From Streptantibioticus cattleyicolor NRRL 8057 = DSM 46488 (lineage in GTDB: Bacteria > Actinomycetota > Actinomycetes > Streptomycetales > Streptomycetaceae): a stretch of DNA of 64,000 nucleotides. The stretch lies in NCBI RefSeq assembly GCF_000240165.1, contig NC_017586.1:3534001-3598000 (forward strand), given 5' to 3'. Under the pieces are notes generated by a model. That model saw only the letters and a program-made list of their open reading frames with translations, ran no database searches and was not told the origin of the DNA. The translations under genes and the position numbers were made by a program. This document shows positions 4,836 to 48,967 of this stretch, in pieces (position 1 is the stretch's first letter; each line of letters opens with the position of its first letter).

Positions 4836-6226
4836 GAGGTCACCGCCGGCTCCACCGGGTCCGTGGCGGGGCGGGACGCCTCGTCCGCCGCCGTACCGGA
4901 CGGCCACGGCACCGTCGCCGTCAGCCGGAAGCCGTCCGGGGCGCAGGGGCGGGCGGCGAGCGTGCCGTCCAGGGCCGCCAGCCGCTCGCGCAGCCCGGCC
5001 AGCCCGCTGCCCGAACCGGGCGGGCGGGCGGCGTCCACCCCGTCGTTCTCCATGGTCAGCACGGCCGGACCGGGCGGCCCCGCGCGCAGGCCGATGACGC
5101 AGGTCCGGGCGTCCCCGTGGCGCAGCACGTTGGTGGTCCCCTCCCGCACCACCCAGGCCAGCGCCGACTGGACCACCGGGGGCAGCGCCGTGCCGTCGTC
5201 CCCCTCGATCCGGGCGGCCACCCCGGCGGCCCGCAGCACCGACAGGGCGCCGGTCAGCTCCGAGCGGAGGCCGGCCGTGCGGTAGCCGCGCACCACCTCC
5301 CGCACCTCCGCCTGCGACTCCTGCGCGATCCGCTGCACCTCGACCATCTGCTCCACCGCCTCCGGGCGCCCCCGGCGGGCGAGTTGGACGGCCAGCTCGC
5401 CCTTGAGCGCGATCACCGCGAGGTTGCGCCCGAGCACGTCGTGCAGGTCCCGCCCGAACCGCAGCCGTTCCTCGGCGACCGCCAGCCGCGCCTGCGCCTC
5501 CCGGGCCGCCGCCAACTCCCGCACCACCGAGACCACCCAGGCCGAGCAGCGGACCGTGGCCGCCGTGGAGGCGGTGGAGAACGCCCCCACCAGCAGGCTG
5601 ACGACGACCCCGTAGACGTTGAGCCCCAGCCCGGCCAGCAGCACCGCGACGCAGACCGTGGGGACCGCCGCGATCACGGCCACCGTCCGCCGCCGGGCCA
5701 CCAGCAGCGCGTACGAGCCGGTGAGGACGGACGTCACGAAGGACAGGCCGGCCGGGAGGAGGTAGACCGCGACCAGCAGCCCGGTGCCGGCCAGCGCGCC
5801 GAACCCGGCCAGCAGCAGCGCGGTGACCACGCCCAGCGCGCACACCGGCCACGGGTGCGGCCGGGGCGCGGTGGCCGCCAGCCGCCGCGTCATCGCCTGC
5901 CCGGTCACCACGACGGCCAGCACGCACTGAGCCACCGTCAGCGGCACCAACAGCCAGGGGAGTACGGAGTCCCACCGGCGGCCGATACCGGGGAGCGCCA
6001 GTACCAGTTCCGAGCAGCCGAAGACCACGTAGGTGGCGTTGACCGACTTCCTGGTGTACGACTCCACCCGTTCCGCGCTGCTGCGCCGCTGCCGCCGCAC
6101 CCCGGCCCCCTCCACGCGCCCGTCCGCTCCGCCGCCGTCCCGTCGACCACCGTCCGGCCCAAGCGTCCCGCGTGGCAAGGGGGTACGGCGGTGCGCGGTG
6201 TCATCGGCGCGGATGACATTTGTCAC
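4832..6226 (-). CDS. DesK-type sensor histidine kinase
   Basis: A 464-residue membrane kinase. After a charged, probably disordered N-terminus (about 1-60) there are roughly six hydrophobic segments (about 65-235), a short coiled linker rich in Ala/Arg/Glu, then the HisKA_3 dimerisation domain with the phospho-acceptor His in GRDLHDVLGRNL. The HATPase domain has the N box VVREGTTNVLRHG and the G box GSGSGLAGLRERL. It autophosphorylates and passes phosphate to the regulator encoded just downstream with a 4-nt overlap. The first 50 residues are poorly constrained, so an internal start near residue 50 is possible. Confidence 0.9.
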   Translation of the reverse strand: MTNVIRADDTAHRRTPLPRGTLGPDGGRRDGGGADGRVEGAGVRRQRRSSAERVESYTRKSVNATYVVFGCSELVLALPGIGRRWDSVLPWLLVPLTVAQCVLAVVVTGQAMTRRLAATAPRPHPWPVCALGVVTALLLAGFGALAGTGLLVAVYLLPAGLSFVTSVLTGSYALLVARRRTVAVIAAVPTVCVAVLLAGLGLNVYGVVVSLLVGAFSTASTAATVRCSAWVVSVVRELAAAREAQARLAVAEERLRFGRDLHDVLGRNLAVIALKGELAVQLARRGRPEAVEQMVEVQRIAQESQAEVREVVRGYRTAGLRSELTGALSVLRAAGVAARIEGDDGTALPPVVQSALAWVVREGTTNVLRHGDARTCVIGLRAGPPGPAVLTMENDGVDAARPPGSGSGLAGLRERLAALDGTLAARPCAPDGFRLTATVPWPSGTAADEASRPATDPVEPAVTS

Positions 6227-6246
6227 CGGAACCCCGGGCGAATAGC

Positions 6247-6280
6247 CGTAGGGCCCGATCCGGAAGGATCAGGCCCTACG
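6247..6280 (-). terminator. Terminator after the second tRNA-Gly
   Basis: CGTAGGGCC-CGATCC, loop GGAA, GGATCA-GGCCCTACG form a near-perfect stem just past the 3' end of the leftward tRNA-Gly at 6287-6359. Confidence 0.8.
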
Positions 6281-6286
6281 TTGTGG

Positions 6287-6359
6287 AGCGGACGACGAGG
6301 CTCGAACTCGCGACCTCAACCTTGGCAAGGTTGCGCTCTACCAACTGAGCTACGTCCGC
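6287..6359 (-). tRNA. tRNA-Gly (GCC), second copy
   Basis: 73 nt, base-for-base identical to the copy at 4123-4195, anticodon GCC, no encoded CCA. It has its own terminator, so the pair is not one simple processed transcript. Confidence 0.97.
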
Positions 6360-6436
6360 AGGTTGCCCCCGAGCGGCTCTCACCGCCCGGTGCGCTGACC
6401 ACTCTACCTGATCGATGGACCCGGTAGGGCTGTCGG

Positions 6437-6508
6437 AGCGGGTGACAGGAATTGCACACTGCGCCTCCCCTTTGGAAAAGGGGCGCTCTGCTACTGAGCT
6501 ACACCCGC
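6437..6508 (-). tRNA. Atypical tRNA-Gly (TCC)
   Basis: 72 nt with a good acceptor stem (GCGGGTG/CACCCGC), D stem GCTC/GAGC and anticodon stem CCCCT/AGGGG around TTTCCAA, giving anticodon TCC. The D loop reads AGTAGCA rather than having the usual G18-G19, and the T region reads CAGTG-TGCAATT-CCTGT. This has no proper five-pair T stem and lacks the TTC of a normal T loop. It is clearly tRNA-derived and may be the cell's GGA/GGG reader, but a role outside translation cannot be excluded. Confidence 0.75.
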
Positions 6509-6599
6509 GCGGTTCGGTTGCCCGGCCCTTCGGCCTCGCCCCCGGCGCGCTCCAGACTTTAGCGGATCACCGGGGGTGGTTGTCCAATCGGCTTCCGGG

Positions 6600-6637
6600 G
6601 CCCTCGCCGCGCCCCCGACCAGGGGCGCCGCGAGGGC
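6600..6637 (-). terminator. Terminator downstream of lsrL
   Basis: GCCCTCGC, inner arms around CGACC, and GCGAGGGC form a long GC-rich hairpin 10 nt beyond the lsrL stop codon. Confidence 0.75.
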
Positions 6638-6647
6638 GGGCGGCGGC

Positions 6648-6965
6648 TCAACTCGCCGCTTCGAACGCCTCGTAGACCTTCTTGGGGATCCGGCCGCGCG
6701 GGGGCACGTCCATGCCGTTGGAGCGGGCCCAGGCGCGCACCGCCGCCGGGTCGGGGGCGACCGAGGTGCGCTGGTACGCCTTCCCGGAACGGCTGCGGCG
6801 CCGGCCGGCCTTGAGGTAAGGCGTCAGCGCATTGCGCAGCTTGTCCGCGTTGGCGGCGGAGAGATCGATCTCGTACGCCTTCCCGTCGAGGCCGAAAGCG
6901 ATCGTTTCCGTGGCCTCGCCGCCGTCGATGTCGTCGGAGAGTGTGACCACCACGCGCTGCGCCAT
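6648..6965 (-). CDS. lsrL: Lsr2-family nucleoid protein (LsrL type)
   Basis: 105 residues. The N-terminal half (MAQRVVV to about residue 60) is the Lsr2 dimerisation domain with the FGLDGKAYEIDLS strand. The C-terminal half has the DNA-binding helices AVRAWARSNGMDVPPRGRIP; the usual RGR AT-hook is preserved as RGR in this segment. Lsr2 proteins bind AT-rich, often foreign, DNA and silence it. Position next to purS matches the second Lsr2 paralogue of Streptomyces (LsrL, SCO4076) rather than Lsr2 itself. The frame is open further upstream, but ATG at 6965 follows AAAGGAC and gives the conserved start. Confidence 0.93.
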   Translation of the reverse strand: MAQRVVVTLSDDIDGGEATETIAFGLDGKAYEIDLSAANADKLRNALTPYLKAGRRRSRSGKAYQRTSVAPDPAAVRAWARSNGMDVPPRGRIPKKVYEAFEAAS

Positions 6966-7297
6966 GGATATCGGTCCTTTCGTTCGGCAACGGCCGGGCG
7001 ACGGATGGCCAACCGCATCCGCCGAGCCGTTCTGACGTGCGGCAATGTGCCAGAGTCCGCGGGCCCAAGTCAATGGTCCGGTATTTCTTCGGGAGAACGA
7101 TTACAGGCCGCGACCGTGAGTTATTTCCCAACGGTGCCGGAACGTAATCGGAACCTTGAGGTTTTCCTCGCGTTTTTCCTGGCAGGTTAGCCCGGTCGAT
7201 GCATAACCGTGATGGGGTGACCGGCATATCTATGCGCGTAGATTCTCCGGCCGGGTACGCTGAAGGCACCTCACGCACCACACCACCGGGAGTGCCA
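6966..7297. other. Divergent intergenic region between lsrL and purS
   Basis: About 330 bp without a gene. The stretch 7080-7220 is conspicuously AT-rich for this genome (for example GAGTTATTTCCCAACGG and CGCGTTTTTCCTGG) and probably carries the promoters of both lsrL and the purSQL operon. An AT-rich tract beside an Lsr2-type gene is also a plausible autoregulatory binding region. No riboswitch or clear operator was recognised. Confidence 0.5.
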
Positions 7298-7543
7298 GTG
7301 GCACGCGTCGTAGTCGACGTCATGCTCAAGCCGGAGATCCTCGACCCCCAGGGCCAAGCGGTGCAGCGCGCGCTTCCGCGCCTGGGCTTCGAGGGGATCT
7401 CCGACGTTCGTCAGGGCAAGCGCTTCGAACTCGAAGTGGAAGGGGCGGTCGACGACGACGCCCTGGCCCGCATCCACGCGTTGGCCGAAACGTTCCTCGC
7501 CAACACCGTGATCGAGGACTTCGTCGTAAGGGTCGAATCGTGA
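7298..7543 (+). CDS. purS: FGAM synthase subunit PurS
   Basis: 81-residue PurS, the small structural subunit that bridges PurQ and PurL in phosphoribosylformylglycinamidine synthase. Sequence features: [19 protein letters not shown] at the start, [17 protein letters not shown] in the middle and [14 protein letters not shown] at the end, as in the family. GTG at 7298 follows GGGAG and gives the standard N-terminus; the upstream open frame is not conserved in type. It overlaps purQ by 4 nt. Confidence 0.95.
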
Positions 7544-8295
7544 CCCACCCGTCGCCCGCCACCACCCTCGACGGAGGCCCTACGGGCCGCGGTGCCAAGC
7601 GGATCGGTGTCGTCACCTTCCCCGGCACCCTGGACGACCGGGACGCGCTGCGGGCGGTCCGGGTCGCGGGTGCCGAACCGGTGCCGCTGTGGCACCGGGA
7701 GAAGGACCTGCGGCAGGTCGACGCGGTGATCCTGCCCGGCGGCTTCTCCTACGGCGACTACCTGCGGGCCGGGGCCATCTCCCGGTTCTCGCCGATCATG
7801 GAGAAGGTCATCGAGGGCGCCCGTGAGGGGCTGCCGGTACTCGGCATCTGCAACGGCTTCCAGGTGCTCACCGAGAGTCACCTGCTGCCCGGCGCGATGC
7901 TGCGCAACAACCACCTGCACTTCGTCTGCCGCGACCAGAGGCTGCGGGTGGAGAACGCGGAGACCGCCTGGACCTCCGAGTTCACCGCGGGCCAGGAGAT
8001 CCGCATCCCGCTGAAGAACATCGACGGCCGCTACACCGCCGACCGGCGCACCCTGGAGGAGCTGGAGGCCGAGGGCCGGGTGGTCTTCCGCTACCTCACC
8101 GACGGCGACCCCGCCGACGGGTACGGCAACCCCAACGGCTCGCTCGACGACATCGCCGGCATCACCAACGAGGCGGGCAACGTCGTCGGCCTCATGCCCC
8201 ACCCCGAGCACGCCGTGGAACCGCTGGTCGGCACCGGCGGCACCGACGGCCTCGGGTTCTTCACCTCGATCCTGAGGAAGCTGGTCAGCGCATGA
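7540..8295 (+). CDS. purQ: FGAM synthase glutaminase subunit PurQ
   Basis: 251 residues. Class I glutamine amidotransferase that releases ammonia from glutamine for PurL. The nucleophile Cys is in LGICNGFQ (about residue 104) and the His/Glu pair in MPHPEHAVE near the C-terminus. The oxyanion region is [10 protein letters not shown]. The first about 19 residues (to RGAKRIGVV) are an extension beyond the usual start. It overlaps purS and purL by 4 nt each, so the three subunits are translationally coupled. Confidence 0.96.
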
Positions 8296-41998: not shown

Positions 41999-43300
41999 AT
42001 GAAGCCCAGTGGCCGCGTACGGTCGGTGCTGCTGTGCCTGCTGGTGTGGGCGGCCGTGACGGCGGCGCCCGGGGCCGCCGCGCCCGGGGCCGACCCGGTG
42101 GGGCCGTGCGCGCTGCCGCGGACCGACGCCTGGCTCTCCGAGGGGGTCACGCCCTGGGACGACGCCCATGTGCGCCCGCTGGGCACGGTGCGGGCCGCGA
42201 TGGTCTTCGTCCGCTTCCCCGACCACGTACCCCGGCGGGCGCCGCGGCAGGTCGAGTCGGCGTACCTGCCCTCGGTGCCCAAGTTCTACCTCGACGCCTC
42301 CTACGGCAAGGCCCGGCTGGCGATCGACCCGGTCGAGCGGTGGATCACGCTGCCCAGGACGGCCGCCGGGTACGGCATCCACCGCGGCACGCCGTACGAC
42401 CGTACGGTGGCGTACCTGCGGGACACCGTACGGGCGGCGCACCGGGCCGGGGTGGGCTTCCCCGGCGACCGGCTGCTCTACGTGGTCGCCGACCCGGACG
42501 CCCCCGGGGTGGACCACGACGCCACCGCCGCCGTCACCCTCGCCGCCCGCGACACGCTCGCGGTGGACGGCACCCGCATCCGCAACGTCGCCCTCATCTG
42601 GGAGGCGGCCACCCCGGACCGCAACGTCGTCGCCCACGAGACCGGCCACCTGTTCGGCCTGCCCGACCTGTACGTCCAGCCGCAAGGGGCGGGCGGCGAC
42701 TGGGACTCCATGGTCGGCGACTGGGACCTGATGGGCGACCAGCGGGCGGCGGCACCGGAGTTCCTGGCCTGGAACAAGTGGAAGTTCGGCTGGTTCGACC
42801 CCGGCCAGGTGGAATGCGTGGCCGCCCCCGGCGTCAGCCGGCACACCCTGACGCCCACCGAAGTCACCGGCGGCACCAAGCTCGTCGTGGTCGCCCACGG
42901 CCCCACCGACGCGTACGCGATCGAGGCCCGCAGCCCGTACGGCAACGACCGCGGGCTGTGCGCGCCCGGCGTGCTCGTCTACCACGTGCGCACCACCGTG
43001 GACTCCACCCTCGGCCCGATCGACGTGCGCAACGCCCACCCCGGCACCGTGGCCGCCGACCTCCCGGCCACCGCCGACGGCCCCTCCGGGGTGCCCGGGG
43101 TGCCCCGCAGGTGCGCCCGGGTCCAGGAGCCCTCGATGGCCCGGGCCACCCTCCAACCCGGCGAGAGCTACACCGCCGACGGCGGCGCGCTGAAGGTCAC
43201 GGTGGTCGCCGAGCGCCCCGACGGCGACTACCTGGTGGACGTCACCGCCGGCCCGCCCGCCCCGCCGCCGGGCCGGGGTGGCGGGCCCGTGGCGCGTTGA
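41999..43300 (+). CDS. Secreted M6-type metalloprotease
   Basis: 433 residues. Signal peptide: basic start, VLLCLLVWAAVTAAPGAAA, cleavage likely near 28-30. The zinc site HETGHLFGLPDLY has the HExxHxxGxxD arrangement of M6 and relatives, and DSMVGDWDLMGDQ after it supplies the Met-turn-like segment. LGTVRAAMVFVRFPD and GKARLAIDP upstream are typical of the immune-inhibitor-A/M6 fold. A C-terminal beta domain follows. An extracellular protein-degrading enzyme; GTG/ATG ambiguity does not apply as the ATG has GAGG upstream. Confidence 0.88.
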   Translation: MKPSGRVRSVLLCLLVWAAVTAAPGAAAPGADPVGPCALPRTDAWLSEGVTPWDDAHVRPLGTVRAAMVFVRFPDHVPRRAPRQVESAYLPSVPKFYLDASYGKARLAIDPVERWITLPRTAAGYGIHRGTPYDRTVAYLRDTVRAAHRAGVGFPGDRLLYVVADPDAPGVDHDATAAVTLAARDTLAVDGTRIRNVALIWEAATPDRNVVAHETGHLFGLPDLYVQPQGAGGDWDSMVGDWDLMGDQRAAAPEFLAWNKWKFGWFDPGQVECVAAPGVSRHTLTPTEVTGGTKLVVVAHGPTDAYAIEARSPYGNDRGLCAPGVLVYHVRTTVDSTLGPIDVRNAHPGTVAADLPATADGPSGVPGVPRRCARVQEPSMARATLQPGESYTADGGALKVTVVAERPDGDYLVDVTAGPPAPPPGRGGGPVAR

Positions 43301-43376: not shown

Positions 43377-43832
43377 GTGGGAGACGATGTCGTCATCACG
43401 GTGAGCGGGGTCAAGGCCCCGGACACCGAACTGGCCGCCCTGGAAACCTGGCTCCGCTCCGAGGACGAACTCAAGCAGAGCGTCAAACGGGAGGAACGCA
43501 CCCCGCAGGAGGCCATGGGCATCGCCTACGACCTCCTCGTCCAGATCGGCGGCGAGGCGGTCTTCGCCACCGCCATGGTGCTGCTGCGCTCCATCCGCAA
43601 CTTCCGCGGCAACCGGCACTCCCAGCGCGGCGGCGACGGCTTCACCGTCACCCTGCGGCTGCCCGAGCGCGACCTGGAACTCGTGCTGCGCTCCGGCGAC
43701 GACCTGACCACCCGGGACCTGGAGGAGTACGGCCGCCGCATCGAACGCGCCCTGACCGGCGGCGACGGCGACGGCCGGGGCGAGGACCCGCCGCGGTCCG
43801 GCACGACGCGACCGGCGCGGCCCACGGAGTAG
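43377..43832 (+). CDS. EACC1-like protein (effector-associated constant component)
   Basis: 151 residues. The pattern is LAALETWLRSEDELKQSVK, then IGGEAVFATAMVLLRSIRNF (a hydrophobic, probably membrane-inserting helix) and TVTLRLPERDLELVL, which I recognise as the EACC1 family. EACC1 proteins are encoded next to varied effectors in bacterial conflict systems of multicellular bacteria. The gene is the first of an operon and ends 3 nt before the caspase-like gene. GTG start after GGGGG. Function is inferred from the family and neighbours. Confidence 0.75.
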   Translation: MGDDVVITVSGVKAPDTELAALETWLRSEDELKQSVKREERTPQEAMGIAYDLLVQIGGEAVFATAMVLLRSIRNFRGNRHSQRGGDGFTVTLRLPERDLELVLRSGDDLTTRDLEEYGRRIERALTGGDGDGRGEDPPRSGTTRPARPTE

Positions 43833-43835
43833 GCG

Positions 43836-46367
43836 GTGGCCTACGAGCCCAACGCCTCCCGCTCGCGGGCGGTGCTCATCGGCGTCTACGCCTACGAGCA
43901 CCGGGCGGACTTCGCCAACCTGCCCTCGGTGCGCACCAACGTCCGCAAGCTCCACGAGGTGCTCACCGACCGCACCCTGGGGCGGATGCTGCGCACCACC
44001 GTCGAGGCGCCGCGCGAGTCGTGCACCCGCGACGAGGCGTTGCGGCTGATACGCACCTCCGCCGCGCAGGCCACCGACCTGCTGCTGGTCTACTTCGCCG
44101 GCCACGGCTACATGGACGTCCTGGGCGACGAGCTGTACCTGATGACCCGCGAGTCGTCCCGGCGGACCGCCCGCACCACCGGCATCCCCTACACCGGCCT
44201 CCTCGCCGAACTGGCCCGGTCCCGTGCCGAACGGGTCGTCCTCATCCTGGACTGCTGCTGCTCCGGCAACGCGAAGCTCGAATCCCTCGACGACCGGAAG
44301 TTCTCGCTGCTGGTCTCCTCCCGGCCGCGCAGCATCATCTACGGCGGCGACGGCATCGCCCCGACCCCGTTCACCGCCGCCCTGCTCAAGCTGCTGACCA
44401 CCGGCACCCACGAGGACGGCTCGGTCACCGTGCAGAGCCTGGGCCAGGGGCTGAAGGAGATCGCCGAGGCCGAGGCGGCGGCCATCGACCCGGACGCCGA
44501 CTACGACCCGTGGGTGCCGCGCGAGGTCTCCAGCGGCGGGGCGGGCGACACCGTGCTGTCGGCGGCCCGCCACCACCACGCCGAACCGTGGTGGCGGGCC
44601 GCCGCGTCACGCGCCGGGCAGCGGCTGCGGCGCGTCATCGGCTACCTGGGCTTCTGCTGGAAGACGTGGGCCTGGGGGCCGGGCCAGCCGTGGTGGCACC
44701 GGCTGCTGGCCGGCGTGGTGATCACGGCGGCGCTGGCCGGCCTCGGGATGGGCGTGCTGACCGCCACCCGCCCCGAACCGCTGTGCCCCACCCCGCTGGA
44801 ACTGCGGGCGCTCACCTCACCGGAGACCCGCGACGCGCTGGCCGCGGTGGCCGACGCCTTCCGGACCAGCCAGGAGGACCTGCGCCCGCTGGGCGGACGC
44901 CCGGCCGGCTGCTACCAGATCAACGTCACCGTGCAGGCCGCCCCCAGCGACCAGACGGTGGCCGCCTTCTCCGACTCGGCGGCCTGGGCCGAGCCCCAAC
45001 TCGCCTGCCCGCAGCCCGGATCGACCGCCTCCCCCTGCCCGGAACCGCTGCGGGACGTCGGCCCCCACCCCGATGTGTGGCTGCCCGCCTCGGCCACCGA
45101 GTACCAGCGGGTGGCCGACGCCGTGCGCCGCCCGGAGTCCGCGGTGAGCCTCGGCGTACCGTTCACCGTCGCCCGTTCGCCCGCCGTCCTCGCCGTCTCC
45201 CGCCGGGACGGGCTGACCGGCCGCGCCAGGGCCGGGGAGACCGACGCCGATCTGGTACGGGCCGCCACCGCCCAGGGGTTCACGGTGCGCGGCGCCGCCC
45301 CGCTCTCCTCCGACACCGCCCTCGTCCACGCCCTCCACCTGCCCGCCGGCACCGGCACCGACGACCCCGCGCCACGCGGCGACGACACCGCCGTCATCTG
45401 CGACGCCGCCACCGCCACCGGACAGCGGCGGGCGCTGCTGATCACCGAGGCCGAGGCGGCGGCGCTCTTCGACCCCACCATGCCCGGCCGCCCCTCCTGC
45501 CTCGGCCAGTACGCCGACCCGTACACCGCCTACTACCCCCGGGACGTCCCCGGGCTCGACCTGACCTTCGTACCGGTGACCTGGCGCGACGCGCACGCCG
45601 ACACCGCGCAGCGCACCGAGGCGGTACGCCGCTTCGCGCAGTGGCTGCGCTCCCCGGACGGTCTGCGGGAACTGGGCCGGGAGGGGTTCCGCGGCGCCGA
45701 CCCGAAGGCGCGGCCCACCACCGCCCCGCTGCTGCGCGACGTCTTCGTCCGCGACCCCGGCCCGCCGCCCCCACCGCCCCCGGCCGCCGACGTCGACGCC
45801 CTGGTCCGCCGCTACGGGCAACCCGGCGGCCGGCGCGACGTGCTCTTCGCGGTGGACGTCTCCACCTCGTCCTACTCCGGCAGCCGGGCCGCCACCATCA
45901 GGTCCGTGCTCTCGGCGGCCGTCGGCGGCCTCGCCGCGGACGACCGGTACGGCATCGCCGCGATCCCCGGCTCGACCGGAACCGACGGCCACCCGGCCGC
46001 CCCGCTGCCGCTGGGCACCCACCCCGCGGCCGACGCGCACCGGGCCATCGGCGCGCTGACCGCGGTCGACGACGACGCGCCGATCGCCGCCGCCCTGACC
46101 GGCTGGTCCGACCAACTCGCCCGGGACCACGCCGGGTTGCCACTGCTCGTCCTGATCACCGACGACGAGGACAGCCGCGGCATCAGCCGGCCGCCGCGCG
46201 GCGACGTCCCCGTGGTCGTCGTCTCCACCGAGGAGTTCGGCTGCAAGCTCGACTTCAACATCGAGCTGACCCGCGCCAAGGGCGCCTGCCTGGACGCCTC
46301 GCAGGACCTGCCGGGCCGGATCGGCCGCACCATCGCCCAGCTCACCGCCACGGGAGGCACCGGATGA
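43836..46367 (+). CDS. Transmembrane caspase-like protease with SBP-like and vWA domains
   Basis: 843 residues. N-terminal caspase-like (peptidase C14) domain, about 10-245: RAVLIGVYAY, catalytic His in YFAGHGYM (His90) and catalytic Cys in LILDCCCSGN (Cys141). A basic linker leads to one membrane segment, about 289-310. Beyond it are a periplasmic-binding-like domain (about 315-645, with PDVWLPASATEYQRV) and a vWA domain from about 669 with the MIDAS DVSTS (Asp674). Inference: an external sensor controlling an internal death protease. Its stop overlaps the next gene by 4 nt, and EACC1 lies directly upstream. Confidence 0.9.
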   Translation: MAYEPNASRSRAVLIGVYAYEHRADFANLPSVRTNVRKLHEVLTDRTLGRMLRTTVEAPRESCTRDEALRLIRTSAAQATDLLLVYFAGHGYMDVLGDELYLMTRESSRRTARTTGIPYTGLLAELARSRAERVVLILDCCCSGNAKLESLDDRKFSLLVSSRPRSIIYGGDGIAPTPFTAALLKLLTTGTHEDGSVTVQSLGQGLKEIAEAEAAAIDPDADYDPWVPREVSSGGAGDTVLSAARHHHAEPWWRAAASRAGQRLRRVIGYLGFCWKTWAWGPGQPWWHRLLAGVVITAALAGLGMGVLTATRPEPLCPTPLELRALTSPETRDALAAVADAFRTSQEDLRPLGGRPAGCYQINVTVQAAPSDQTVAAFSDSAAWAEPQLACPQPGSTASPCPEPLRDVGPHPDVWLPASATEYQRVADAVRRPESAVSLGVPFTVARSPAVLAVSRRDGLTGRARAGETDADLVRAATAQGFTVRGAAPLSSDTALVHALHLPAGTGTDDPAPRGDDTAVICDAATATGQRRALLITEAEAAALFDPTMPGRPSCLGQYADPYTAYYPRDVPGLDLTFVPVTWRDAHADTAQRTEAVRRFAQWLRSPDGLRELGREGFRGADPKARPTTAPLLRDVFVRDPGPPPPPPPAADVDALVRRYGQPGGRRDVLFAVDVSTSSYSGSRAATIRSVLSAAVGGLAADDRYGIAAIPGSTGTDGHPAAPLPLGTHPAADAHRAIGALTAVDDDAPIAAALTGWSDQLARDHAGLPLLVLITDDEDSRGISRPPRGDVPVVVVSTEEFGCKLDFNIELTRAKGACLDASQDLPGRIGRTIAQLTATGGTG

Positions 46368-47737
46368 GCCGCGTCCCGACGACCCGCCGCCGGGGCCGCC
46401 TCGCCGGGCTGCTGCTCGCCGCGGCGCTCGCCCTGCCCGCCGGATGCGGCTCGGGCCCGTCCGCCGCGCCGCCCCGCCCGCTGGACGACGGCCGGCCCCT
46501 CGTGGTGGCCAGCGGCGCCGACCTGACCACCGGTTCCGGCGCCGGGATACGCAGCCACCTGATCGACCGGTGGAACGCCGACCCGCACCACCGCAAGGCG
46601 GTCCTGGTGGAGCTGCCCTGGGCCGCCGACGGCCAGCACAGCGAACTCGTCGGCGCCCTCCAGTCCGGCGCCGCCGACTACGACGTGGTCAACCTCGACA
46701 TCACCTGGATACCCGAGTTCGCCGCCGCCGGACTGATCCGCCCGCTGCCGGACACCATGGTGGACTCCGGCTTCCTGCCCGCCGCGGCGGCCACCAGCCG
46801 CTGGCAGGGCCGCACCTACGCCGTACCGTTCAACTCCGACGTCGGCCTGCTCTACTACCGCACCGCAGACCTGGCGGAGGTCGGCCTGAAACCGGCCGAC
46901 CTCGGCGGCTACGCCTCCGTCGGCGACCTGCTCTCGGTGATCAACCAGCACGGCCGCCCGATCTACACCACCCAACTGCGCGAGTACGAAGGGCTCACCG
47001 TCAACACCCTGGAGGCGTTCTGGGACGCCGGGGCCGACCTGGTCGACGCCAAGGGGCGCTACATCGGCACCGACAACGGGCTGCGCAAGGGGCTGGAGGC
47101 GCTGCGCGGCCTCGGCGTCGGCGGCACCACCGACCAGCGGTCGCTCGACGCCGACGAGTCCGACTCGCTGGCCATGTTCGTCCAGGGCAAGCAGGGCGCG
47201 GGCATGCTGATGCGCAACTGGCCGTACGCCTTCAACCGGCTCGACGCCGGCCTGCCGCCCGGCACCGGTTTCGGGGTGACCCGGCTGCCCGGCGTCGCCG
47301 CGCTGGGCGGGCAGAGCCTCGCGGTCACCACCGGCAGCGACCACCCCGACGACGCGCGGGAACTGATCCGCTTCCTCACCGGCGACAGCAGCGAACGCGC
47401 CCTGCTGGACGCCGGACTCCCCGCCGCCCGTACCTCCGCGTACGACCCGCGCGGGATCACCTGCGGCACCCCCAGCACGTCCTCGGTCGAGGTCGACCGG
47501 CAGGGCGGCAAGGAGCGTTCGGCCGTCACCGCGGCGGTACGGCGGCGGTGGACCGAGGTGCTGTGGTGCGCGCTGCGGCAGGCGCGGGCACGGCCCGCCT
47601 CGACGCACTACGTCCCCTTCAGCCGGGTACTGCAACGCGAGGCCCACCGCTTCCTGCTCAACCCCACCGGCACCGCCGAACAGCAGGCCGTCGACGACCT
47701 CCCCGGCGAACTGGGCAAGGCGCTCGGCGGTCGATGA
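46364..47737 (+). CDS. Orphan extracellular solute-binding lipoprotein
   Basis: 457 residues. Signal and lipobox LPAGC (Cys about 28). Family 1 (sugar-type) solute-binding fold: VVNLDITWIPEFAAAGLIRPL, AVPFNSDVGLLYYRTADL, MRNWPYAFN and GGQSLAVTTGSDHPDDARELIRFL. A C-terminal helical tail follows. No ABC permease or ATPase gene is adjacent; instead it is coupled by a 4-nt overlap to the caspase-like gene, whose outer part also resembles a binding protein. Probably it presents a ligand to that receptor rather than serving import. Confidence 0.9.
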   Translation: MSRVPTTRRRGRLAGLLLAAALALPAGCGSGPSAAPPRPLDDGRPLVVASGADLTTGSGAGIRSHLIDRWNADPHHRKAVLVELPWAADGQHSELVGALQSGAADYDVVNLDITWIPEFAAAGLIRPLPDTMVDSGFLPAAAATSRWQGRTYAVPFNSDVGLLYYRTADLAEVGLKPADLGGYASVGDLLSVINQHGRPIYTTQLREYEGLTVNTLEAFWDAGADLVDAKGRYIGTDNGLRKGLEALRGLGVGGTTDQRSLDADESDSLAMFVQGKQGAGMLMRNWPYAFNRLDAGLPPGTGFGVTRLPGVAALGGQSLAVTTGSDHPDDARELIRFLTGDSSERALLDAGLPAARTSAYDPRGITCGTPSTSSVEVDRQGGKERSAVTAAVRRRWTEVLWCALRQARARPASTHYVPFSRVLQREAHRFLLNPTGTAEQQAVDDLPGELGKALGGR

Positions 47738-48034: not shown

Positions 48035-48967
48035 GTGGCGTCGATGGAGCCTGCCGTAGCGGAACCCGCCCAGGACGAACCGGCGGTGACCCCGGACCCG
48101 GTCCCGGTCCCGGGTCCCGGGGACGGTGATCGGGGGCGGCACCGGCTGCCCAAGCAACGTACGGTCTCCCGTGGTTCGACGGTGCTCGGCGTGGCGGCGA
48201 TGGCCGCCGTGGGCGCCGGCGGCGTCGCGGCGGCCCAGGGCAAGTCCCCGGTGCCCGTCTCCGTCCCCGACCTCGTGCCGGAGGGCGTCAAGCAGGCGTT
48301 CACCGGCGAGTCCGCGGAGCAGTCCGCGCAGCCGGCCGCCGCCGACGAGCCGGTGGCCGTCGCCGACCCCGGCGAGGCGCTGCGCAACCGCATCCTCGCC
48401 CAGGTCGACCAGCAGAAGTCCGCCGCCGAGCGGGCCGAACTGGAGAAGCGGGCGGCGGCCGAGGCCAAGGAGGCCGCGGCCCGCCGGGTGCGGGAGGAGG
48501 CCGAGGCCAAGCGCCAGGCGGTCGCCGAGGCCGCGCGGAAGGCCGAGGCGGAACGTATCGCCAAGCTGGCCAGGAGCTACGTCAAGCCGGTCGCCTCCTA
48601 CACCCCCAGCTCCCACTTCGGCGAGGTCAGCTCGTTGTGGGCCACCACCCACACCGGCCAGGACTTCGCCGCCCCCACCGGTACGCCCGTGACGGCCGTC
48701 CACTCCGGCACCATCACCTCGGCCGGCTGGGCCGGCTCCTACGGCTACCGCATCGTGCTGCGCCTCGACGACGGCACCGAACTGTGGTTCTGCCACCTGT
48801 CCTCGATGGTGCGCACCTCCGGCCAGGTCACCACCGGCGACGTGATCGGCCGCGTCGGCGCCACCGGCAACGTCACCGGCCCCCACCTCCACCTGGAGGT
48901 CCGCCCGGACGGCGGCGCCCCGATCGACCCGGTGGGATGGCTGGCGGAGCGTGGCCTGACGGTGTGA
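48035..48967 (+). CDS. M23 peptidoglycan endopeptidase
   Basis: 310 residues. An N-terminal cytoplasmic stretch, a membrane or signal segment (STVLGVAAMAAVGAGGVAAAQG, about 48-69), a coiled Ala/Glu/Arg-rich region (about 115-180) and a C-terminal LytM domain. Metal ligands: His in TTHTGQDFAAP (HxxxD), and GPHLHLEVR (HxH). It cuts cross-links in the cell wall. Regulated by the riboswitch in its leader. GTG at 48035 or the ATG 9 nt on could be the start. Confidence 0.93.
   Translation: MASMEPAVAEPAQDEPAVTPDPVPVPGPGDGDRGRHRLPKQRTVSRGSTVLGVAAMAAVGAGGVAAAQGKSPVPVSVPDLVPEGVKQAFTGESAEQSAQPAAADEPVAVADPGEALRNRILAQVDQQKSAAERAELEKRAAAEAKEAAARRVREEAEAKRQAVAEAARKAEAERIAKLARSYVKPVASYTPSSHFGEVSSLWATTHTGQDFAAPTGTPVTAVHSGTITSAGWAGSYGYRIVLRLDDGTELWFCHLSSMVRTSGQVTTGDVIGRVGATGNVTGPHLHLEVRPDGGAPIDPVGWLAERGLTV

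Follow-up and report, generated by a model that had tools for sequence, protein, structure and literature searches.

The window, which is the whole stretch of 64,000 nt that was analyzed, contained a unit of 3 genes on the same strand at positions 43377-47737, here referred to as the trio. The first gene (43377..43832, plus strand, GTG start) encoded a protein of 151 amino acids that passed the Pfam cut-off for the Effector Associated Constant Component 1, EACC1 (PF19953, 43.6 vs. 23.6 bits), and in which a hydrophobic stretch was recognized by eye. The second gene (43836..46367, plus strand, GTG start), identified from its open reading frame (ORF), Pfam and NCBIfam matches, and a structural model, encoded a putative receptor-protease of 843 amino acids in which a caspase domain was followed by a transmembrane (TM) helix, a solute-binding protein (SBP) domain, and a vWA domain. 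The third gene (46364..47737, plus strand, ATG start) encoded an SBP lipoprotein of 457 amino acids of the LpqY/TMBP/MalE3 type (PF13416, 76.3 bits vs. a cut-off of 27). The genes for EACC1 and the caspase chain were separated by a 3-nt gap, and those for the caspase chain and the lipoprotein overlapped by 4 nt (ATGA). This reading of the ORFs bore out the extent and tight coupling of the genes given in a preliminary description of the same DNA, and the Pfam match agreed with its assignment of the upstream protein as EACC1-like.

Genes for an M6-family metalloprotease and an M23 peptidase were located upstream (window positions 41999-43300) and downstream (48035-48967) of the trio, respectively. 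Relatives of the M23 peptidase were present in 6 related loci. No relative of the M6 protease or of the esterase was identified within the available flanks of loci L038 to L126, and both were therefore rejected as parts of the unit.

The domains of the 843-residue chain were examined in an alignment of 68 rows, which included the window protein, 6 of the 7 first relatives (without L043), 60 of the 67 remaining loci, and L172; 7 loci were omitted because their gene models were unusual or extremely long, and L047 duplicates L038. A model of the chain built on 68 relatives had a mean pLDDT of 88.9. The caspase domain (residues 10-210; 43863..44465, plus strand) passed the NCBIfam model caspase_w_EACC1 with 163.9 bits versus 140, and the modelled domain matched the fold of MALT1 with a Z-score of 23.3 over 209 residues (rmsd 2.6). 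The residues of the catalytic dyad, His90 and Cys141, were conserved in all 68 rows. A single TM helix was placed at residues 290-308 (44703..44759, plus strand) by hydropathy, charge bias, and the model, the best 19-residue hydropathy window starting at residue 290 with a value of 2.26 and the modelled helix covering residues 286-310. In the window protein, the 30 residues preceding the helix had a net charge of +5 and the 15 residues following it one of -1, and the former segment was more positive than the latter in 66 of the 68 rows. Because of this charge bias across the helix, the caspase domain is predicted to be located on the inner, cytoplasmic side. The TM score was below 1.6 in 3 of the 68 receptors, and additional TM-like windows were present in 5.

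Beyond the helix, a predicted extracellular SBP domain (residues 317-620; 44784..45695, plus strand) was assigned from a match to PF13531 covering residues 324-619 (34.8 vs. 25 bits), the fold of the modelled domain, which resembled sulfate-binding proteins with a Z-score of about 22, and conserved cysteines. There were 6 such cysteines beyond the helix, at positions 317, 359, 555, and 803 in all rows, 522 in 67 of 68, and 818 in 66 of 68, a pattern that would be compatible with disulphides formed outside the cell. The SBP domain was followed by a predicted extracellular vWA domain with a MIDAS motif of the DxSxS type (residues 667-838; 45834..46349, plus strand). The vWA domain of the window protein alone was below the Pfam cut-off (14.5 of 27 bits), and a profile made from 8 relatives matched solved vWA domains with a best E-value of 1.5e-6. 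The MIDAS residues Asp674, Ser676, and Asp776 were present in all 68 rows and Ser678 in 67. The matches listed in a structure search with the whole-chain model were to caspase and SBP folds, and the vWA assignment comes from the sequence profile.

The preliminary description had read a caspase-type His90/Cys141 dyad, a membrane segment near residues 289-310, a binding-protein-like outer domain, and a vWA domain with a MIDAS motif from this chain. All of these were recovered here, as was the caspase fold for which a structure prediction had been proposed, and the placement of the caspase and vWA domains on opposite sides of the membrane was also predicted from the charge bias, the cysteine pattern, and the model. 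It was also noted that L043, one of the first relatives, encodes a caspase receptor (L043:1752-5096) in which a degenerate caspase-like stretch occurs in addition to the caspase domain, as judged from a second, weak match (i-E 0.019).

To survey the distribution of the gene order, 61 genomes were searched, 60 from relatives and the window's own, and matches reaching into the SBP-vWA part were obtained in at least 7 genomes besides the latter. A lipoprotein relative was encoded directly behind the receptor in all 7 first relatives, and an EACC1-like ORF was located in front in all 7, as recognized by phmmer in 3 cases and by eye in 4; these 4 ORFs were included in the EACC1 profile used for the later locus counts. 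A GTDB scan with the lipoprotein alignment confirmed at least 552 relatives. Among the best 80 of these, 75 of which were titled Streptomyces, a caspase was encoded upstream of the lipoprotein in 71 loci (68 in one frame and 3 in split frames), while the other 9 loci were cut by contig ends. The 12 cut or split loci were left out of the gene list, which thereby contains 68 rows. An EACC1-like ORF was located directly in front of 65 of these 68 caspase receptor genes, and the first start codon of the lipoprotein gene overlapped the receptor stop by 4 nt in 45 loci and by 1 nt in 20 loci, with other arrangements in 3. Locus L044 contained 2 tandem EACC1-like ORFs, recognized by eye, before one caspase receptor (L044:11426-12300, minus strand).

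Among 150 Streptomycetaceae genomes, 27 encoded the lipoprotein type, with scores of 437 bits or more, and the same 27 also encoded the SBP-vWA type, with scores from 290 bits upward; the next relative below the lipoprotein type scored 334 bits. Of 293 genomes of the order, at least 58 contained the SBP-vWA type at 320 bits or more. Scoring was limited to a few top candidates in each genome, so that these counts are lower bounds. The trio is an accessory but common unit, and its occurrence in other genomes, a point on which the preliminary description had made its proposal depend, was seen both in the 7 first relatives and, for the caspase and lipoprotein genes, in 71 of the 80 loci. Because this arrangement of genes was found again in many other loci, chance or mis-annotation was rejected. 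Plasmids or phages as carriers were likewise rejected: no plasmid match was obtained at an E-value of 1e-20, and the single phage record that was retrieved covered 17% of the query, within the caspase part.

Another gene was often located near the trio. A caspase homolog of about 350 residues was encoded in 35 loci (for example at L058:2812-3873), 33 of which were among the 68 loci with one-frame caspase receptors. In 30 of these 33, the gene was located no more than 1 kb from the start of the caspase gene, i.e. before the EACC1 gene; no such homolog was found before the EACC1 gene in the window. Two scanned homologs scored 31.0 and 22.5 bits against the EACC1-type caspase model (E-values of 1.6e-7 and 6.6e-5; cut-off 140 bits). 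Of the 34 rows readable at His90, 33 had Gln in its place, and Cys141 was replaced by His, Tyr, or Arg in all 35 homologs. Judging from these substitutions, the protein looks like a catalytically dead caspase, which could serve as a brake on or a partner of the trio. The position of the dyad-less homolog near the receptor recalls c-FLIP.

The genome from which the window was taken contained 2 more EACC1-caspase pairs, at L045:5837-8044 and L046:5697-9572, with WD40-propeller and AAA/helicase-type tails, and a fourth caspase match at 1682836-1683561 with no EACC1 match beside it.

The lipoprotein was studied in an alignment of 72 rows (8 plus 64). The predicted anchor residue, Cys28 (46445-46447, plus strand), was conserved in 71 of these. 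The nearest solved relatives were MalE3 (E-value 1.1e-56), TMBP (1.1e-50), and LpqY (4.4e-41). According to the text of PMC7949145, the residues through which LpqY contacts trehalose include Asp80, Asn134, Glu241, Trp259, Arg404, Gly334 (via its backbone), and Gln59. Based on motif and spacing, their counterparts in the lipoprotein are Asp112, Asn157, Glu265, Trp286, Arg410, Gly315/316, and Gln91, which were conserved in 72, 70, 72, 72, 72, 72, and 70 of the 72 rows, respectively. The lipoprotein is thus of the same SBP type as LpqY, TMBP, and MalE3, and to judge from these positions it keeps a putative pocket of the trehalose/maltose type, the ligand of which is probably a glucosyl disaccharide. 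Position 317, which follows the double glycine, was Gln in 71 of the 72 lipoproteins and Trp in the alignments with MalE3 and TMBP, and the specificity may differ from that of the latter 2 proteins because of this replacement.

Wider searches with the SBP-vWA region covered 246 genomes of the class, 396 of the phylum, and 2 other families (35 and 250 genomes). We fetched 20 class-wide loci as well as 40 high-scoring loci from the family of 250 genomes, most of which matched from the first model positions. In the latter set, a gene of the lipoprotein type followed the receptor gene within about 400 bp in all loci but L186 and L208 (38 of 40). The lipoprotein type also followed in 10 of the 20 class-wide loci, including 2 of the caspase type (L170 and L172), and in the other 10 the open frame stood alone and was 626 to 898 residues long. 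No lipoprotein type was found beside L166. A separate observation concerns L168, where the SBP-vWA protein (open frame 5496-8141, minus strand) had a weak N-terminal HTH match (24.9 of 27 bits) and no adjoining lipoprotein type; it is possibly a membrane-bound regulator.

Several other inner domains were identified in combination with the same outer cassette. A trypsin domain was found in 3 loci, at 46.5 bits in L193 and 48.2 bits in L195 versus a Pfam cut-off of 27.6, and just under this cut-off in L156 (25.0 bits). A gene for Trypco2 preceded the receptor gene in L193 (79.9 bits) and L195 (76.1 bits; cut-off 24.2). The receptors in L187, L188, L190, and L192 contained an inner domain of about 190 residues that had no Pfam match and matched a cyclase with a profile E-value of 0.027. 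Of the models of this domain, only the best was confident (pLDDT 88.9; the others 77.6, 59.8, 56.8, and 54.1), and its closest PDB folds were class-III nucleotidyl cyclases (E-value 8.8e-10, TM 0.66), a fold match that points to a cyclase fold for the inner domain in these 4 loci. Finally, the receptor in L154 contained an inner EAD1 domain (38.7 vs. 24.2 bits) and was preceded by a gene for an EAD1-TIR protein (EAD1, 39.0 bits; TIR_2, 89.7 vs. 28 bits). The 2 EAD1 stretches agreed at 93 of 96 positions; this type is represented by a single locus on a short contig of a fragmented assembly, and the arrangement may reflect a repeat or an effect of the assembly. A gene for a ThiF/E1-like protein (71.5 bits) and a radical-SAM-like ORF, the latter recognized by eye, were located before the EAD1-TIR and EAD1-receptor genes (L154:2276-3379 and 881-2029), and these recall ubiquitin-like conjugation modules.

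The commonest type among the 40 loci consisted of receptors with membrane helices and no cytoplasmic domain (31 of 40, as judged by eye). Two of the 40 loci were cut by contig ends, and the protein in L208 looked secreted. None of the cyclase-type and helix-only receptors that were scanned was assigned a name by NCBIfam.

To examine how the inner types are distributed over the outer part, a quick tree was inferred from 74 SBP-vWA regions, excluding L170, L172, L174, and L166; the tree contained one long branch. A branch with an SH-aLRT support of 99 separated 10 stand-alone proteins from the lipoprotein-linked clade, which also included L186, a locus without the lipoprotein. The caspase type (18 rows, support 78), the cyclase type (4 rows), and the trypsin type (3 rows) each required one change on the tree. 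All 7 inner-type labels together required 7 changes, as compared with a minimum possible of 6 and a mean of 34.5 for shuffled labels. Read from this tree, the inner part appears to have been exchanged several times beneath a related outer part.

Part of this arrangement is already in print. The 2-gene EACC1-caspase conflict system was described as "System 4" by Kaur et al. 2020 (PMC7159879). Section 33 of that paper gives up to 50 variable tails, among them a TM segment with an extracellular PBP, and also mentions MoxR-independent vWA tails and systems with a cNMP cyclase in place of the caspase. The EACC1 of System 4 is characterized by a TM helix in which small residues form a patch. The trio resembles System 4 in that a 5′ gene for EACC1 is followed by a 3′ gene for a protein with an N-terminal EACC1-type caspase, an intact dyad, and a variable C-terminus. 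The C-terminus also varied between the EACC1-caspase paralogs in the window's own genome, being of the SBP-vWA, WD40, or AAA/helicase type. Unlike System 4 as presented in section 33 of PMC7159879, the trio contains a lipoprotein as the third gene and a combined SBP-vWA ectodomain, the cassette of which recurs with trypsin and Trypco2 and with EAD1 and EAD1-TIR. EACC2-caspase systems, as described in PMC8195603, similarly have caspases with variable tails, some of which are extracellular with TM segments (CHASE2), and the same authors suggested that such tails join in sensing; they differ in the constant component, and no SBP-vWA or lipoprotein is described in the passages on these systems. 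In the passages of the 2 papers on EACC1- and EACC2-caspase systems, there is no description of the third gene, of an ectodomain combining SBP and vWA, or of the exchanged cassette, although their supplements may list such loci. The main new point is a possible wider receptor family built around the cassette of SBP-vWA and lipoprotein.

A tested actinobacterial precedent for signaling from a lipoprotein SBP via a membrane partner is the GlnH-GlnX-PknG system of Corynebacterium, in which, according to the text of PMC9769921, the lipoprotein signals via a separate membrane protein to a cytoplasmic enzyme. GlnX has 4 TM segments and helical periplasmic domains, whereas the window receptor has one modelled TM helix, an outer SBP-vWA part, and a fused inner enzyme.

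We find it somewhat probable that the trio is an EACC1-caspase system in which the variable tail functions as a membrane receptor, with the lipoprotein as sensor and the caspase as output. The ligand captured by the lipoprotein would be small, probably a glucosyl disaccharide, and the loaded lipoprotein would dock on the outer SBP-vWA part. The changed association of the receptors would bring the caspase domains close to one another and to EACC1 on the inner face of the membrane, and a proximity-type activation of the caspase would lead to cleavage of cytoplasmic targets. In the relatives, the same outer cassette is joined to the trypsin, to the domain with the cyclase fold, or to EAD1, a putative adaptor through which an EAD1-TIR effector could be recruited. 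Animal death receptors and Toll-like receptors also combine an outside sensor, a TM segment, and an inner caspase- or TIR-linked output. The overall action would be like that of a one-protein death receptor or Toll-type receptor, but the ectodomains are unrelated and the trio receptor has its caspase in the same chain, so that this is an analogy only, and we do not propose that these systems as a whole share an origin.

Other explanations were weighed against such a receptor. The lipoprotein might be a component of an ordinary importer that is linked to the other genes by chance, and its nearest solved relatives do include the SBPs of ABC importers (MalE3, TMBP, and LpqY). A linked permease gene is a feature of these importers. 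However, no MalF/G-type sugar-permease motif was found in the window, in any of the 80 trio loci (the best 80 of at least 552 relatives), in the 60 other SBP-vWA loci, or in the 7 first relatives, whereas 8 of the 14 loci used as a positive control, which encode ordinary SBP relatives, did contain the motif; the scan covered linked genes only, and an unlinked permease is possible. The trio lipoprotein further differs from LpqY, TMBP, and MalE3 by the score gap to its ordinary relatives, and its co-occurrence with the SBP-vWA type in the same genomes also speaks against a chance linkage. An importer was ruled out for now on the basis of the permease counts, and we regard this explanation as highly improbable. 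The term orphan used for the lipoprotein in the preliminary description is apt in the sense that no permease motif is linked to it, but not in the sense of rarity.

It is also conceivable, but in our view unlikely, that the signal runs from the inside out, in which case EACC1 would sense an intracellular or membrane event, the caspase would be the switch, and the outer SBP-vWA part and the lipoprotein would be the payload or effector. Such an order follows the proposal in section 33 of PMC7159879 that EACC1 is a membrane-associated sensor and the tails are effectors freed by auto-proteolysis, and it would suit the WD40 and helicase-type tails of the 2 other EACC1-caspase genes in the same genome. 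Yet a domain beyond the membrane could hardly be released by a cytoplasmic caspase, and the outer cassette was found without EACC1 or the caspase, on trypsin, cyclase-fold, EAD1, and helix-only inner parts. With the inner part exchanged repeatedly and each protease accompanied by its own small partner gene, it is hard to explain the outer part as a mere payload of the EACC1-caspase pair. The partner genes also weigh against a scaffold, to which we give still less credence: here, SBP-vWA and the lipoprotein would form a binding or assembly complex in the envelope, which the inner domain only anchors or trims, with no ligand-driven signal. The prevalence of helix-only receptors among the 40 fetched loci, which implies that the outer module must act without a cytoplasmic domain, and the SBP-vWA proteins without the lipoprotein type (10 of 20 loci) would agree with such a role, but the strict conservation of the caspase dyad and of the lipoprotein pocket would not.

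The best reading is signaling from the outside in, since one outer cassette is retained with different inner domains, which is the pattern of a receptor family. The outside-in arrangement put forward in the preliminary description is favored by this pattern and by the predicted topology; its mention of damage as a possible trigger was a guess. The chances seem to us evenly balanced that the trio belongs to a modular family of actinobacterial TM receptors with a constant SBP-vWA ectodomain, a lipoprotein co-receptor of the sugar-SBP type, and an exchangeable output, a counterpart by analogy of the death and Toll-like receptors. The loci examined suggest that the outputs of such a family are a caspase with EACC1, a trypsin with Trypco2, a nucleotidyl cyclase, and an EAD1 adaptor with EAD1-TIR.

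Bacterial caspase, TIR, and EAD systems have mostly been read as alarms for intracellular events. If the receptor reading is true, mycelial bacteria would also own surface receptors wired to death-type effectors, through which an extracellular cue would elicit protease, second-messenger, or TIR responses. The question of what EACC1 caspases sense would then become testable, with the lipoprotein, which is soluble and has a sugar pocket of a known type, as the candidate sensor.
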